Positions 12,567 to 18,695 of a stretch of 64,000 nt of DNA are shown piece after piece. The position numbers were made by a program, and so were the translations under genes. Source of the DNA: Natrinema amylolyticum. Its GTDB lineage: Archaea; Halobacteriota; Halobacteria; Halobacteriales; Natrialbaceae. How positions within the stretch are numbered: the first letter of the stretch is position 1; each line of letters starts with the position of its first letter. Under the pieces are notes generated by a model. That model saw only the letters and a program-made list of their open reading frames with translations, made no database searches and had not been told where the DNA came from. The stretch is from positions 806,001-870,000 of the forward strand of contig NZ_JAIWPJ010000001.1 of NCBI RefSeq assembly GCF_020515625.1, in the 5' to 3' direction.

Positions 12567-13715
12567 ATGAATCGCCGGCGTTTCCTCCGCGGAACAGCGA
12601 CGATCGGAGCCGTCGGGACCGTCGGCACGGCCGGCTGTCTCGAGCGACTCGGGTTCGAAGAAGAGTCCGCGTGGGCGAACCCCCCGCTCGTCGAGAACCG
12701 CCCCGACGCCGTCTACCTCCCGGCCTCGCGCGAGGAGATGGCGACCTACGGGATGGCGGCCGACGGCGACTACGCCGCCGCGCTCTCCTATACCTTTCCG
12801 CACCGGTTCTGGACCGTCGAGGCCACCAGCGACGGGAAACAGCTCGTCGAGGTCGACACCGACGACAGCCACCACCTCATGGTCACCGTCTGGGACCGAG
12901 AGACCCACACCGTCCTTCCGGTGGACATGCGACTCGAGGTCCTGCAAGACGGCTCGCCAGTCGACGCGGGCGTCTCCTCGCCGTGGCCGATGCTCTCCCA
13001 GCGGATGGGCTTTCACTACGGCGACAACGTCCGGTTGCCGGGCGAAGGCGAGTACACGGTCCGCGTCCGGGCCGGTCCCGTCTCCCTCGAGCGAACCGGC
13101 GCGTTCGAGGGACGGTTTGAATCGGCAGGCTCGCTCGAGATCGACTTCGAGTACGTCCGATCGGACATCAACGGTCTCTCCTTCGAGACGCTCGACGAGG
13201 ATAAGTGGGGGAGCCGTGACGCCTTGTCGGTGATGCAACACGGCGAGGGCAGCAGCGGCCACGACGGTGATCACGGTGGGGGCAGTGACGGACACGACGG
13301 TGACCTCGGGCCGCCACCGACGGGACAGGGGCCGCCGGTCGCGGACATTCCGGGAGAGTCGCTCGGAACCGAGCGCAGCGGCGACGCGGCGATCACCGTG
13401 TTCGCGACCGACGCCGACCGGTTCACTGACGACGGCTCGTATCTGGCAATCTGTCCCAGAACGCCGTACAACGGCATCATCCTCCCGCTGACGTCCCTGT
13501 CCGTCGCCGTCGAACGCGACGGTGACGTCGTCCGGGAGGGGGCCCTCGCGGAAACGCTCGACGGGGCGTTCGGACATCATTACGGACTCGAGATCGACGA
13601 GCTCGCGGCGGGCGATCGCGTGACGGTCACCGTCGATTCGCCCCCGCAGGTGTCCCGTCACGATGGCTACGAGACGGCGTTTTTCGAGTTCGACGACGTC
13701 ACGTACACGGTCTAG
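12567..13715 (+). CDS. P19/Tp34-like metal-binding lipoprotein (DUF7350-type)
   Basis: A 382-residue exported protein. The start is the ATG of MNRRRFLRG, which gives a Tat motif and a lipobox TAGC at about Cys22; the 20 codons upstream look non-coding. Residues about 85-190 resemble the P19/Tp34 periplasmic iron/copper protein fold, with DDSHHLMVTV, MRLEVL and GFHYGDNVRLPG holding the His/Met ligands of that family. A His/Gly/Asp-rich linker follows at about 230-260, then a second beta domain. Divergent from the SCO-TlpA-CcdA operon, so a shared metal/redox function is likely. Haloarchaeal copies are annotated as iron-transport-associated; copper is equally possible here. Confidence 0.75.
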   Translation: MNRRRFLRGTATIGAVGTVGTAGCLERLGFEEESAWANPPLVENRPDAVYLPASREEMATYGMAADGDYAAALSYTFPHRFWTVEATSDGKQLVEVDTDDSHHLMVTVWDRETHTVLPVDMRLEVLQDGSPVDAGVSSPWPMLSQRMGFHYGDNVRLPGEGEYTVRVRAGPVSLERTGAFEGRFESAGSLEIDFEYVRSDINGLSFETLDEDKWGSRDALSVMQHGEGSSGHDGDHGGGSDGHDGDLGPPPTGQGPPVADIPGESLGTERSGDAAITVFATDADRFTDDGSYLAICPRTPYNGIILPLTSLSVAVERDGDVVREGALAETLDGAFGHHYGLEIDELAAGDRVTVTVDSPPQVSRHDGYETAFFEFDDVTYTV

Positions 13716-14183: not shown

Positions 14184-14360
14184 ATGTCTCGCACAGGTCA
14201 CGCAGATATGGATGTCGGCTGCCCGGAGTGTGATACGACGGTCAGCGCCACCGTTCCGCCAGGACCGGGGATCCACCCCGAGAGCGATTCGAACCCGCTA
14301 CTGGGGAAGGAAACCCGGTGCCGGAACTGCGGTCACGAACTCGAACTCTATTACTACTGA
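14184..14360 (+). CDS. Small zinc-ribbon protein, 58 residues
   Basis: Short frame starting MSRTGHADMD, with two zinc pairs CPEC (residues 13-16) and CRNCG (46-50), ending HELELYYY. Such four-cysteine ribbons are common among haloarchaeal micro-proteins; function is unknown. GATAACTAT about 30 bp upstream may be its TATA box, and a GTG precedes the ATG directly. A hairpin with 8-bp arms follows at 14383-14402. The zinc pairs and acidic composition set it apart from the surrounding non-coding frames. It lies just left of the replication origin. Confidence 0.7.
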   Translation: MSRTGHADMDVGCPECDTTVSATVPPGPGIHPESDSNPLLGKETRCRNCGHELELYYY

Positions 14361-14382
14361 ACCCGACTGTCACTCCGGGATC

Positions 14383-14402
14383 GGCCAGTCCGTCGACTGG
14401 CC
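14383..14402 (+). terminator. Hairpin after the zinc-ribbon gene
   Basis: GGCCAGTC, a 4-nt loop, GACTGGCC: a perfect 8-bp stem 22 bp past the stop codon. There is no long T-run after it, so termination is a suggestion. Confidence 0.4.
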
Positions 14403-14431
14403 GACTGCGCGATATTCGATCATCGAACGCC

Positions 14432-14513
14432 GAGTGACGGTCGTGGACTGAGGAACGTGAGTGACGCTCGAGCGCTGAGTGATACGTCCCCGAGTGACGG
14501 CCCCAGAGTGGCG
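14432..14513. repeat. Five degenerate GAGTGACG repeats beside the origin
   Basis: GAGTGACG at 14432, 14459 and 14492, with variants GAGTGATA at 14477 and GAGTGGCG at 14506. Spacing is irregular (14-27 bp). No function known. Confidence 0.35.
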
Positions 14514-14581
14514 GAGTTCCGGAACGGACGTGAACGTCGCTTCATCGTGGGACCGCACGCATCGGAGCACAGTCGGACCCC

Positions 14582-14602
14582 CACACCGAGTTTCCGGTGA
14601 AA
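14582..14602 (+). repeat. ORB-like box 1
   Basis: CACACCGAGTTTCCGGTGAA; one mismatch (A for T) from the consensus in this orientation. Confidence 0.8.
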
Positions 14603-14645
14603 GTCGTCGACGAGAGAAACGCGTTGTGAGGATCGAGACGGGGAG

Positions 14646-14666
14646 ACACACCGTGTTTCCGGTGAA
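14646..14666 (+). repeat. ORB-like box 2
   Basis: ACACACCGTGTTTCCGGTGA; full consensus core. Confidence 0.85.
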
Positions 14667-14770
14667 TCACAACGGAATCAGCGGTCGACGGACCGGTCGA
14701 TCGGTCGGCTTTCGGTGACGCCGAACGGTTTCGGTAGCCGAGCCAGCAGCGATCAAAGCCGAATCGAGTC

Positions 14771-14792
14771 CACACACCGGGTTTCCGGTGAA
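14771..14792 (+). repeat. ORB-like box 3
   Basis: CACACACCGGGTTTCCGGTG; one mismatch in the core (G for T). Confidence 0.82.
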
Positions 14793-14875
14793 TTTGCTGT
14801 CCGACGTCGGCTGCAGAATACCGGAATCGAATCGGTCGATGAGAGATAAGTAACTGAATCGCCCTGAATCCCACC

Positions 14876-14896
14876 CACACCGTGTTTCCGGTGAAA
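14876..14896 (+). repeat. ORB-like box 4
   Basis: CACACCGTGTTTCCGGTGAA; full consensus. Confidence 0.85.
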
Positions 14897-15168
14897 TATC
14901 CCGGAGTCGTCGAACGATGACGGCCGAAGGTGACGACTCGAGAAATACGCGGGGGGATGAGACGGAGCGCGAGACACGAGAACGAATGCGAAACGAAACT
15001 CCGTACTGACGGCGGTCGAATTTCCGACGGCGCTCGAACTCCTCACGGCGATCGGACTGCTATGCTCGGACGAGTCAGCAGATCGGACTCGATGGATCAG
15101 ACTTGACGGATCGAACTCGACAGATCGAACGCGAGTGATTGCTCAGAGACACGGAGTACTCACTCGGA

Positions 15169-15190
15169 CACACACCGTGTTTCCGGTGGA
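15169..15190 (+). repeat. ORB-like box 5, nearest to the AT-rich element on the left
   Basis: CACACACCGTGTTTCCGGTG followed by GA; full core, isolated from box 4 by about 270 bp and lying about 55 bp left of the AT-rich stretch. Confidence 0.85.
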
Positions 15191-15244
15191 AGCGTTCGAG
15201 GAGGGGTCCCACTGCGGCCGAGTACACGATGACGTCTGCTATCC

Positions 15245-15345
15245 TACTCGGTTGATAGCTATCTGTTATAGATACACATAAGTAGTAGATATGAGTAGAG
15301 TCCACTAAGTGAATCAGAATATAGTTCTATAGGGATCAGATAGAG
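15245..15345. other. AT-rich putative duplex-unwinding element
   Basis: A stretch unusually rich in A/T for this genome (for example GATAGCTATCTGTTATAGAT and GAATATAGTTCTATAGGGAT), lying exactly between the left and right facing ORB arrays. No reading frame or TATA-gene pairing explains it. Confidence 0.75.
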
Positions 15346-15486
15346 GTGGCACTCGATACGGCCCTGACCGTTGTCGTCAGTGTCGGTCATCGATATCGGT
15401 CTCTGGCGACGCTATTCCCATGTCCGTCTGGCTTCCGACGACTACAACCTACGTTTCGACTGGAACGCATTTACTCTCTCACCCCG

Positions 15487-15508
15487 TTTCACCGGAAACA
15501 CGGTGTGT
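15487..15508 (-). repeat. ORB-like box 6, inverted orientation
   Basis: TTTCACCGGAAACACGGTGT on the plus strand, the exact reverse complement of boxes 2, 4 and 5. Confidence 0.85.
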
Positions 15509-15659
15509 GTTCGCGTCCGATCGATTCTCGAGACGTCCCGGTGAACGGAACTGCTCGAGTCCTCGCCCCGAATCGGTATCTCCCTTGTATACTCGCTACA
15601 GGCAGTCTCCGTCACCTCCCGTTTTCCGCTCGAGTCTCCGACGCCAAACGGAAGGGCTA

Positions 15660-15680
15660 TTTCACCGGAAACACGGTGTT
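15660..15680 (-). repeat. ORB-like box 7, immediately upstream of orc start
   Basis: TTTCACCGGAAACACGGTGT ends six bases before the orc ATG at 15686 and overlaps the space between a TATA-like GGCTATTT and the start codon, so bound Orc would cover its own promoter. Confidence 0.85.
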
Positions 15681-15685
15681 CGACT

Positions 15686-16891
15686 ATGTCGAGTTCCGGC
15701 GACGACCTGTTCACGCGCGACGACCCGATCTTCGAGAACAAGGAACTCCTCGAGATCAATCATCTCCCGGCGGAGGGCCGGATCGTCGGTCGGGACGACG
15801 AGATTTCGGAGCTCGCGAACGCCGTGAATCCGGCAATTTTCGGGCAGAGTCCGAGCAATCTCCTCATTTACGGGAAAACGGGGACGGGCAAGTCCCTCTG
15901 TGCTAAGTACATCTCGGAACGGGCCGTCCGGGTCGCGGGGGACGAGGACGTCACCTCCGCGTTCGCCTACGTGGACTGCGCACAGGATAACACGGAGACC
16001 CAGGCGGTCCAGACGATCGCCCACTCGCTGAACGAACCGGCGATCACCGACGTCCGGATCCCGGACAAGGGGCTCAGCACCTCGACGTACTATAAGCGCC
16101 TCTGGACGGTGCTCGACTCCCAGTACGACGTCGTCCTCGTGATCCTCGACGAGGTCGACAAGCTCGACGACGACGACATTCTCATGCAACTCTCGCGTGC
16201 GGGCGAGGCCGGCAAACTCGAGTCGTGCAAGATCGGCGTGATCGGAATCAGTAACAAGATCAAGTACAAGGACCGCTTGGACGAGCGGGTCAAGTCCAGT
16301 CTCTGCGAGCGGGAGTTCGTCTTTCCGCCCTACGACGCGAACCAGCTCCGAAACATCATGCAGGCCCGCAGCGACGCGTTCAAGGACGGCGTCCTCGAGC
16401 CCTCAGTTATCCCGCGAGCCGCGGCGCTGGCCGCCCGCGAACACGGCGACGCGCGGAAGGCGATCGATATCCTCCGATACGCCGGCGAGATCGCCCAGTC
16501 GAAGGGCAGCGAGACGGTTCGCGAAGAGTTCGTCGTTCAGGCGCGCGAGCGGGCCGAAACCGATCGGTTTCGAGAACTCATCCGCGGGTCGACGCCCCAC
16601 TCGCGATACGTCCTGCAGGCGCTCGCCGTCCTCTCGCTCAATACGGCCGACGAGGACGGGTTCAGGACGACGAAGATCTACGACGTCTACGAGGAAATCT
16701 GTCGACAGGAGAGCTCCGAACCGCTCTCGCTGCGACGAGTCCGCGACCTGTTGAAAGAACACGCCTTCCTCGATATCTTAGAGCAGACCCGCCGGAGCGG
16801 CGGGAGCGCGGAGGGAAGCTACACCGAACATCAGTTGCTCGAGGATCCGGACGTCGTCCGGACGGTGCTCGTCGAGACCGACGAGTCGTAG
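15686..16891 (+). CDS. orc: Orc1/Cdc6 replication initiator
   Basis: Cell-cycle AAA+ initiator that binds ORB sites and opens the origin. 401 residues: Walker A GKTGTGKS near residue 73, Walker B VVLVILDEVDKLDDD near 150, sensor 1 in GVIGISNKI, sensor 2 region with AAREHGDARKAIDILRYAGE near 255, and a C-terminal winged helix (about 295-395; TKIYDVYEEICRQ, LSLRRVRDLLKEHAFLDI). Full length for the family. The start is fixed by the short MSSSGDDLFTRDDPIF leader typical of haloarchaeal paralogues. It is flanked by ORB boxes at 15660 and 16968. The genome should contain other paralogues; this looks like one of the non-orc1-1 types, but I cannot assign the subfamily by eye. Confidence 0.96.
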   Translation: MSSSGDDLFTRDDPIFENKELLEINHLPAEGRIVGRDDEISELANAVNPAIFGQSPSNLLIYGKTGTGKSLCAKYISERAVRVAGDEDVTSAFAYVDCAQDNTETQAVQTIAHSLNEPAITDVRIPDKGLSTSTYYKRLWTVLDSQYDVVLVILDEVDKLDDDDILMQLSRAGEAGKLESCKIGVIGISNKIKYKDRLDERVKSSLCEREFVFPPYDANQLRNIMQARSDAFKDGVLEPSVIPRAAALAAREHGDARKAIDILRYAGEIAQSKGSETVREEFVVQARERAETDRFRELIRGSTPHSRYVLQALAVLSLNTADEDGFRTTKIYDVYEEICRQESSEPLSLRRVRDLLKEHAFLDILEQTRRSGGSAEGSYTEHQLLEDPDVVRTVLVETDES

Positions 16892-16967
16892 CGTGTGCCA
16901 GCGCTGACAGCGGACCGGACGGGTGCGGACGAGCAATCAGCACGCATTAGCCGGCAGCGCGCCGACA

Positions 16968-16988
16968 TTTCACCGGAAACACGGTGTC
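16968..16988 (-). repeat. ORB-like box 8, downstream of orc
   Basis: TTTCACCGGAAACACGGTGT, full consensus in the same orientation as boxes 6 and 7, 76 bp after the orc stop. Confidence 0.85.
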
Positions 16989-17040
16989 CCCGTTCGACGC
17001 GCGTCGGAGTCACCGACTCGGTCCGGTGCGCGCTCGGCGA

Positions 17041-17212
17041 CCGACGCACTCAGCAATCGCCAGGTCCGGCAATCGACATACCCAGCAACCGACGCGTTCA
17101 GCAACCGCTAGACCCGGCAACCGACGCGTTCAGCAACCGCTAGACCCGGCAACCGACGCGTTCAGCAACCGCTAGACCCGGCAACCGACGCGCTCAGCGA
17201 CCGCTCTCCCAG
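17041..17212 (+). repeat. 32-bp tandem repeat array downstream of orc
   Basis: Units beginning CCGACGCGTTCAGCAACCGC start at 17089, 17121, 17153 and 17185, exactly 32 bp apart. The last is degenerate and runs into the end of the M24 peptidase gene; a diverged copy starts at 17041. Each unit is itself two related 16-bp halves (CGACGCGTTCAGCAAC and CGCTAGACCCGGCAAC). It fills most of the 305-bp gap between orc and the peptidase gene. There are no spacers, so this is not CRISPR. Confidence 0.8.
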
Positions 17213-18342
17213 CCCCGCGACGTGTCGTTCAGGCGCTCGGCACCGTCGTCGGTCACAGCGACGAGATCCTCGATTCTGACCCCGAACCGTCCCTCGAGGT
17301 AGATCCCCGGCTCGACGCTAAAGACCATGCCGGGCTCAAGTTTGCGGTCGTTGCCGTCGACGATGTAGGGCGGTTCATGGACCTCGAGGCCGACGCCGTG
17401 GCCGGTCCGGTGGACGAATTCGTCGCCGTAGCCGGCCGACTCGATGACCGATCGGGCGGCGCGATCCACCGCACCGGCTTCGACGCCCGGCTCGACGGCG
17501 TCGATCGCGGCTTCCTGTGCCTGCCTGACGGTTTCGTGGACCTGTTCGTACTCTGCGGGCGGATCACCGACGACGATCGTTCGCGTCTGGTCGCCCGGAT
17601 ACCGACCCGTTCCGCCCTCGAGATCGGCCGCGACGAACGCGCCGAAATCGAGCACGATCGGGTCGCCGGCCTCGATCGCCCGCGAGCCGCCGTGATGGTG
17701 TGGCCGGGCCCCGTTCGGGCCGGCGGCGACGATCGTTTCGAAGGCCGGCTCCTCGCCACCGCGTGCGGCGAGCAGTCGGTCAATCTCCGCCGCCAGCTCC
17801 GATTCGGTCGTCCCGACGAGGTCGCCCCCCTGCTCGCGAATCTCGAGCGAGACCCGATCCGCGACCGCGCCGGCCCGCCGGAGGGCGTCGAGTTCGATGT
17901 CGTCCTTCCGGATTCGAAGCGGCTCGAGGACGGTGCTGGCGAGTCCGAATGCGGCGTCCGGGAGCAGTTCTCGGAGGTCCTGCGAGAACGTGGCCCACAG
18001 CCGGTCGTCGAGGAGGACGGTCGCCGGGTCGGCCCCGCCGAGGGAATAGCCCTCGAGGACCTCCGCGATCTCCTCGAGCGGGTCGTCCGCGTCGGTCCAG
18101 AGCCGGAGTTCCAGGTCTGCGATCGACAGTTTGGACAGTTCCGCCTCGTACATCGCCGGCGCGACGAGGGCCGGTTCGCCGGTCTCGGGGACGAACAGCA
18201 GCAGATGGCGCTCCGACGGCGACTCCTCGAAGCCGGTCAGATAGGTCAGGTTCGGACTCGGAAAGCAGACCGCCAGGTCGGTACCCTCGTCGGCGAGTCG
18301 TCGCTGACAGGCCGCGATTCGGCGCTCGAACGGCGATTCCAT
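17194..18342 (-). CDS. M24 family Xaa-Pro aminopeptidase/dipeptidase
   Basis: Metallopeptidase removing residues next to proline, 382 residues, cytoplasmic. The N-terminal creatinase-like domain (about 1-135) is followed by a pita-bread fold with the metal ligands in VLDFGAF, YPGDQTRT, GHGVGLEVHE, FSVEPGIY and VRIEDLV, so all five ligands are present. The start is the ATG of MESPFERRI at 18342; the frame extends 37 codons upstream into Arg/Cys-rich sequence that does not look coding. It converges on orc, and its 3' end overlaps the last 32-bp repeat unit. Confidence 0.93.
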   Translation of the reverse strand: MESPFERRIAACQRRLADEGTDLAVCFPSPNLTYLTGFEESPSERHLLLFVPETGEPALVAPAMYEAELSKLSIADLELRLWTDADDPLEEIAEVLEGYSLGGADPATVLLDDRLWATFSQDLRELLPDAAFGLASTVLEPLRIRKDDIELDALRRAGAVADRVSLEIREQGGDLVGTTESELAAEIDRLLAARGGEEPAFETIVAAGPNGARPHHHGGSRAIEAGDPIVLDFGAFVAADLEGGTGRYPGDQTRTIVVGDPPAEYEQVHETVRQAQEAAIDAVEPGVEAGAVDRAARSVIESAGYGDEFVHRTGHGVGLEVHEPPYIVDGNDRKLEPGMVFSVEPGIYLEGRFGVRIEDLVAVTDDGAERLNDTSRGWESGR

Positions 18343-18695
18343 GGGGGAGACTTCGCTCGAGCGAGAGATCAACGTTTGGTTGCGGTGACGTCGACACTGA
18401 CGGCGGCAGTTGCGGGAGTGCGTCGCTCCCACCTCGCACTCCACCCTTGACATAAGTTACCACGTCACTATCCGTTCGAATTCCAGCGCGTTTGGGCCCT
18501 GGAGCGCTCGATTCCAGGCGTGTTCGAATACAGGCGCGTTCGAAGGAGCAACCCTCGAGCAGCGACTGTTTCTGCGCTCGAACAGTCGCGATATTCGAAC
18601 AGTCGGGTTCCTGCGATTACTAGCGGGAACCTATTAACCCCCCGGCGGTCGCAAGCGGCGAAGCAACCCGTCGGGGCGCTGTGGTATTTCAGCGA
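18343..18695. promoter_or_regulatory. Divergent regulatory region before otsA with repeated motifs
   Basis: About 350 bp between the M24 peptidase and otsA. Near-repeats TTCCAGCGCGTTTG (18480), TTCCAGGCGTGTTCGA (about 18512) and ACAGGCGCGTTCGA occur in series. GAACAGTCG occurs at 18580 and 18597, with an inverted CGACTGTTT at 18563. CTATTAACC at about 18631 is a likely TATA element for otsA. The repeats look like operator sites; the regulator is unknown. Confidence 0.5.

Follow-up and report, generated by a model that had tools for sequence, protein, structure and literature searches.

Origins of replication in haloarchaea characteristically combine an orc/cdc6 gene with an adjacent AT-rich stretch that is surrounded by inverted ORBs (Wu et al. 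2012, PMC3528665), with each Orc pairing with its own box (PMC3528665). Origins were already predicted on pHTUR04, pNMAG01 and pHALXA01 in that work (PMC3528665). In Natrinema sp. J7-2, oriC5 and oriC6 were cloned as ARS-3 in the plasmid pFJ3, which gave ~39 transformants per ug against ~2000 for the best J7 origins, that is, about 50 times less (PMC5350488). The oriC2-cdc6E origin of Haloarcula hispanica carries an ORB-rich element, oriC2D, downstream of orc that serves titration, and oriC2 plasmids transform wild-type cells poorly (PMC3936714).

The locus described here was found in a chromosomal contig of a Natrinema genome, in a window (the whole stretch of DNA analysed) of 64 kb. It resembles the pHTUR04, pNMAG01 and pHALXA01 origins in its inverted ORBs, its AT-rich stretch and the adjoining orc/cdc6 gene, and its Orc belongs to the same family, whereas it differs from the origins of Wu et al. 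in the alternating GT tail of its boxes, in having an ORB fixed at the orc start codon and in its chromosomal site. The oriC1 origins of haloarchaea share the general architecture and the GAAAC core but belong with a different Orc clade. The likeness to H. hispanica oriC2 is one of layout, in the ORBs on both sides of orc that suggest titration control; eleven ORBs lie downstream there compared to one box here.

The J7-2 oriC5/oriC6 pair is assigned to this locus on the evidence of the primer matches, the intergenic layout and the length of the gene. The two predicted origins flank a gap as long as the orc gene described here. In N. gari L047 a site for the ARS-3 reverse primer, with a single mismatch, was found 190 bp past orc, and the best match of the forward primer, which has six mismatches, lies at the expected distance upstream. 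Five ORBs and one ORB were predicted for oriC5 and oriC6 respectively, compared to seven and one here. The conservation of the boxes and the history of the segment, both given below, are not described in the J7 work (PMC5350488). The primers of J7 ARS-1, ARS-4 and ARS-2 were also found to map to Orc loci of the genome studied here (C3 577 kb, C1 1698 kb and C3 188 kb respectively), and the published ARS strengths can therefore be assigned to Orc families.

Architecture of the locus

An AT-rich stretch and an intact orc1/cdc6 gene are flanked by eight boxes of almost the same sequence, five of them forward and three reverse (Table 1), so that at least two opposed ORBs surround the AT-rich element. 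Six of the boxes have the sequence CACCGTGTTTCCGGTG exactly (read on the other strand, TTTCACCGGAAACACGGTGT) and the other two differ from it by one mismatch. The order of five forward boxes, AT-rich stretch and three reverse boxes had been proposed in an earlier sequence-only reading and was confirmed by the box scan, the shuffles and the GC profile. That reading also had the reverse boxes flanking orc, which is correct with the amendment that two of them lie upstream of the gene and one downstream.

Table 1. Features of the origin-initiator module, in window positions.
Feature	Position	Strand	Remarks
Whole 2.8-kb origin-initiator module	14362..17193		missing as a unit in seven genus-mates
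Box 1	14584..14599	+	one mismatch; other-strand tail contains GGGGG
Box 2	14649..14664	+	exact
Box 3	14775..14790	+	one mismatch
Box 4	14878..14893	+	exact; fits the Ori-Finder 2 Halobacteriaceae ORB expression
Box 5, inner left	15173..15188	+	exact
AT-rich stretch, presumed unwinding element	15245..15349		34-36% GC
Box 6, inner right	15490..15505	-	exact
Promoter-like element	15644..15657	+	directly upstream of box 7; CCAAACGGAAGGGC here; putative promoter role
Box 7	15663..15678	-	exact; its end lies 7 nt short of the orc start codon; proposed autoregulatory site
orc1/cdc6 initiator gene	15686..16891	+	401 aa; AAA+, lid, winged-helix
Box 8	16971..16986	-	exact; 3' of orc; proposed titration site

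The GC content falls to 36% at 15250-15349, with a 100-bp minimum of 34% at ~15245, in surroundings of ~60-65%, and the sign of the local G-C skew flips near this stretch. By a naive rule the AT minimum lies inside the innermost box pair in just 22 of 50 loci; the cause is an additional forward box that many relatives carry ~65 bp upstream of the inner reverse one. The spacing of this extra box is kept across genera; the locus in the window is without it. The module is bordered by a small gene (14186-14361) on one side and an aminopeptidase gene (17194-18453) on the other, and no Rfam match was found in the locus. The interval from box 8 to the aminopeptidase gene holds a tandem array with a 16/32-bp unit (CGGCAACCGACGCGTTCAGCAACCGCTAGACC) at window positions 17035-17203.

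The orc1/cdc6 gene, which adjoins the boxes, is intact and encodes a protein of 401 aa with AAA+, lid and winged-helix domains. By sequence, its nearest match among solved structures is Cdc6 homolog 1 (entry 2qby). The box at the orc start codon is present in 54 of 56 family loci with at most two mismatches and in the other two with three, and in all 56 relatives it lies between the start codon and a promoter-like motif. The consensus of this motif in the relatives is CCAAACAGTAAAG, kept upstream of the start-codon box, and no such element was found around the boxes in general. An Orc bound at this box would cover the start region of the putative promoter, so the placement suggests that Orc represses its own gene. 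No precedent for autorepression through a start-codon box was met in a limited literature search, and the fixed box between promoter-like motif and start codon looks new; it offers a simple, testable model of feedback control of an archaeal initiator. At least one box was also observed downstream of orc in most relatives, as here, where it may titrate excess Orc.

Possible use of the origin in Natrinema

The locus is best read, with a probability of about 0.87, as a self-contained orc1/cdc6-dependent origin, a plasmid-type module on a chromosome. Its Orc would bind the boxes that flank the AT-rich element, open that element and load MCM, upon which replication would start in both directions. 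The link of the origin to orc1/cdc6, which had been claimed from the DNA alone, is well supported by the architecture, by the strict linkage of Orc and box and by the position of this Orc as the sole Orc-type initiator of nine plasmids (see below).

The strongest alternative agrees on the identity of the module and differs on its use here, as it holds that the origin is dormant or vestigial, with an intact sequence that rarely fires in Natrinema while other origins dominate. We consider this possible, if less probable than an active origin. A dormant origin has a precedent in oriC4 of Haloferax mediterranei (PMC4595724), and the weak ARS activity of the J7 counterpart (~50-fold) together with the seven genus-mates that are without the module would fit an origin that is weak or dormant in this genus.

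GC, AT and purine skew, computed along the 2.05-Mb contig C1, gave a mixed signal, which would be in keeping with dormancy. With 150-kb windows, three of four measures place a skew switch at C1 821 kb within the top 0.3-0.9%, at best within the top 0.3% of C1 positions; with 250-kb windows the switch is unremarkable. It takes the form of a maximum, the reverse of the sign that is usual in bacteria.

The absence of the module from part of the genus also speaks for dormancy. Orc and boxes are missing in seven of the 29 genus genomes, all of which keep the flanking gene order on contigs of 3.66-4.36 Mb, and junctions of only 132-365 bp (n=7) were found where the 2.8-kb module would sit. The module-free genomes fall into at least two groups within Natrinema in gene trees of moderate support, and at least two losses are therefore likely; the origin has probably been dispensable in this genus and was probably lost at least twice. 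The junction of one genome (G073) holds a possible relic, TTTTCACCGAAAACTCAGTGTCC, which is three mismatches from the box and resembles box 8; from the shuffle rate, the probability of finding such a match anywhere in the seven junctions was estimated at ~1%. Against dormancy, exact boxes and an orc frame without interruption are preserved in all 22 origin-bearing genomes of the genus, which suggests continuing selection. Natrinema species that carry the module and those that do not provide natural knock-out pairs in which the function of an extra origin can be studied.

History of the segment

The segment that carries the module was found in different states among related genera. It is chromosomal and without the origin in the outgroup genera, chromosomal with the origin in most Natrinema, and an independent replicon of ~160-240 kb with the origin in the sister genera. 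The contig of the window, C1, is chromosomal in character (2.05 Mb, 24 tRNA genes). On the 172-kb plasmid pHTUR04, orc has the same neighbours in the same order (Tat protein, orc, peptidase, trehalose synthase), and the plasmid aligns at the nucleotide level over 80 kb with C1 715-850 kb, compared to 0.7-5.4 kb for control windows, with some pieces of the segment moved by rearrangements. The coordinates in three genomes (G100, G102 and G099) agree with named plasmids of 200-241 kb.

We slightly favour a history in which the module was inserted into a chromosomal segment in the ancestor of Natrinema and the sister genera. With its own origin the segment could then leave as a replicon with core genes in several genera, while in Natrinema it would have stayed unsplit on the chromosome and its origin would have been lost more than once. 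Such a course, with acquisition of an origin followed by natural splitting of a chromosome, looks new. The nearest counterpart is the split of a laboratory genome of Haloferax volcanii, a case that its authors call without precedent in prokaryotes (PMC6063281). In both, a segment with its own origin becomes a separate replication-competent element, but here the event is deduced from natural genera and the split appears to follow the insertion of an origin module.

The reverse history, in which an independent replicon came first, was fused into the Natrinema chromosome and then lost its redundant origin in some species, is rather unlikely. It draws on the many plasmid-borne relatives of this Orc, among them the members from Salinibaculum and Halostella, which branch next to the group in the Orc tree and are plasmid-borne as well. 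It is opposed by an outgroup genome (G010) where much of the segment content is found in largely the same order between 2.29 and 2.53 Mb of a 3.67-Mb contig; the site there is without the module, and the genome has its own Orc of the family on another contig. The genes for peptidase, trehalose synthase, glmS and DHODH also lie on large contigs in most of the other outgroup genomes tested, with a looser grouping in some, which again argues against a replicon that was independent at first.

Four sister-genus genomes have a single DHODH match, which lies on the small replicon. The two marks of a chromosome-derived secondary replicon, outgroup collinearity and the sole copy of a core gene, were thus found for pHTUR04 and for DHODH in the four genomes; they refer to the sister-genus plasmids and not to the window itself. 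It is possible that the segment in Natrinema was split and then re-fused. Related genera appear to present three stages at one site (no origin, origin, own replicon) and a later loss, which bears on the reasons for multiple origins in archaea and on the way in which second chromosomes form. A further state was observed in a single-contig genome of 5.1 Mb (G017), which carries the segment without the module on its chromosome (its own C1) at ~2.65-2.75 Mb and has two genus-mates with the Orc on smaller contigs; it could be a possible re-fusion or an unsplit relict.

Linkage of Orc and box, and type of the box

The association between this Orc and its box was surveyed in 68 related loci and, separately, in 125 genomes of the same family by cross-tabulating two listings. 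All 38 loci whose Orc has at least ~77% identity carry box clusters, and the remaining 30 (52-57% identity) have none, apart from one stray box. At least one exact box was found in each of the 79 family genomes with this Orc type, and in three of the 46 genomes without it, as a single copy each. Nine complete plasmid records, those of pNMAG01 and pHALXA01 among them, have no Orc-type match other than an Orc of this type, which implies that these plasmids are replicated by the module unless they also carry a Rep-type origin. No phage record was found to encode a relative of the Orc.

It is very improbable that the boxes mainly regulate orc and titrate Orc while initiation takes place elsewhere. 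The start-codon box and the box downstream of orc do have the most conserved placements, but five boxes lie far upstream, across the AT-rich element, and the nine plasmids have no Orc-type initiator locus besides the module. That the boxes are a chance cluster or an unrelated repeat has a negligible probability and nothing was found in its favour, as nine matches with at most three mismatches occur in the window against a chance expectation of 0.57 per 64 kb (0 of 100 shuffles reached nine), the ninth, at 12908, being a stray with two mismatches; all eight copies with no more than one mismatch in the whole 4.7-Mb genome fall at this locus rather than being scattered without relation to orc, the reversed pattern as control gave two genome-wide matches at up to two mismatches, and box and Orc are linked over the 125 genomes.

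Judged by its letters, the box is an ordinary haloarchaeal ORB with a GT-repeat tail instead of a G-run, a type already present in published motifs. Five of the eight boxes fit exactly the Halobacteriaceae ORB expression of Ori-Finder 2, TT[TC]CACC[GCT]GAAAC[GA][AC][GA]G[GT]G[GT] (PMC4164010). A G-run of at least four directly after the core is found in box 1 only, and the core hardly varies among 288 boxes from relatives, in which an alternating GT tail takes the place of the G-run of oriC1-type boxes. The near-invariant core and, at the level of the consensus, the missing G-string that the sequence-only reading had noted are thus borne out. Its suggestion of a different origin and initiator pair holds in that the pair is distinct from oriC1, and fails in that the box is still of a published ORB type. 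The pair is also not lineage-specific, since relatives of the Orc with 73-98% identity occur in Natrialbaceae, Haloarculaceae, Haladaptataceae and other haloarchaea and are mostly plasmid-borne (those of 73-92% identity in the three named families on plasmids of 63 to 1023 kb). The locus is an ordinary kind of origin, neither oriC1 nor lineage-specific, in a segment with an unusually readable history.

Identity with oriC1 was rejected, as the oriC1-like Orc of this genome, with boxes of the form TCCA..GAAA..GGGG (TCCACTCGAAACGAAGGGG), sits at C3 ~188 kb and belongs to another clade of the Orc tree, in which the deep branches are poorly supported. This gene (C3:187797-189323) has a long acidic low-complexity insertion between its ATPase motifs, and its boxes lie around the gene. 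The repeat finder gave a different inverted box for each of six other Orc loci of the genome that were put through it, in agreement with the published view of one box for one Orc (PMC3528665). Two different Orc genes in opposite orientation, ~0.8 kb apart, were observed at C4:266-269 kb.
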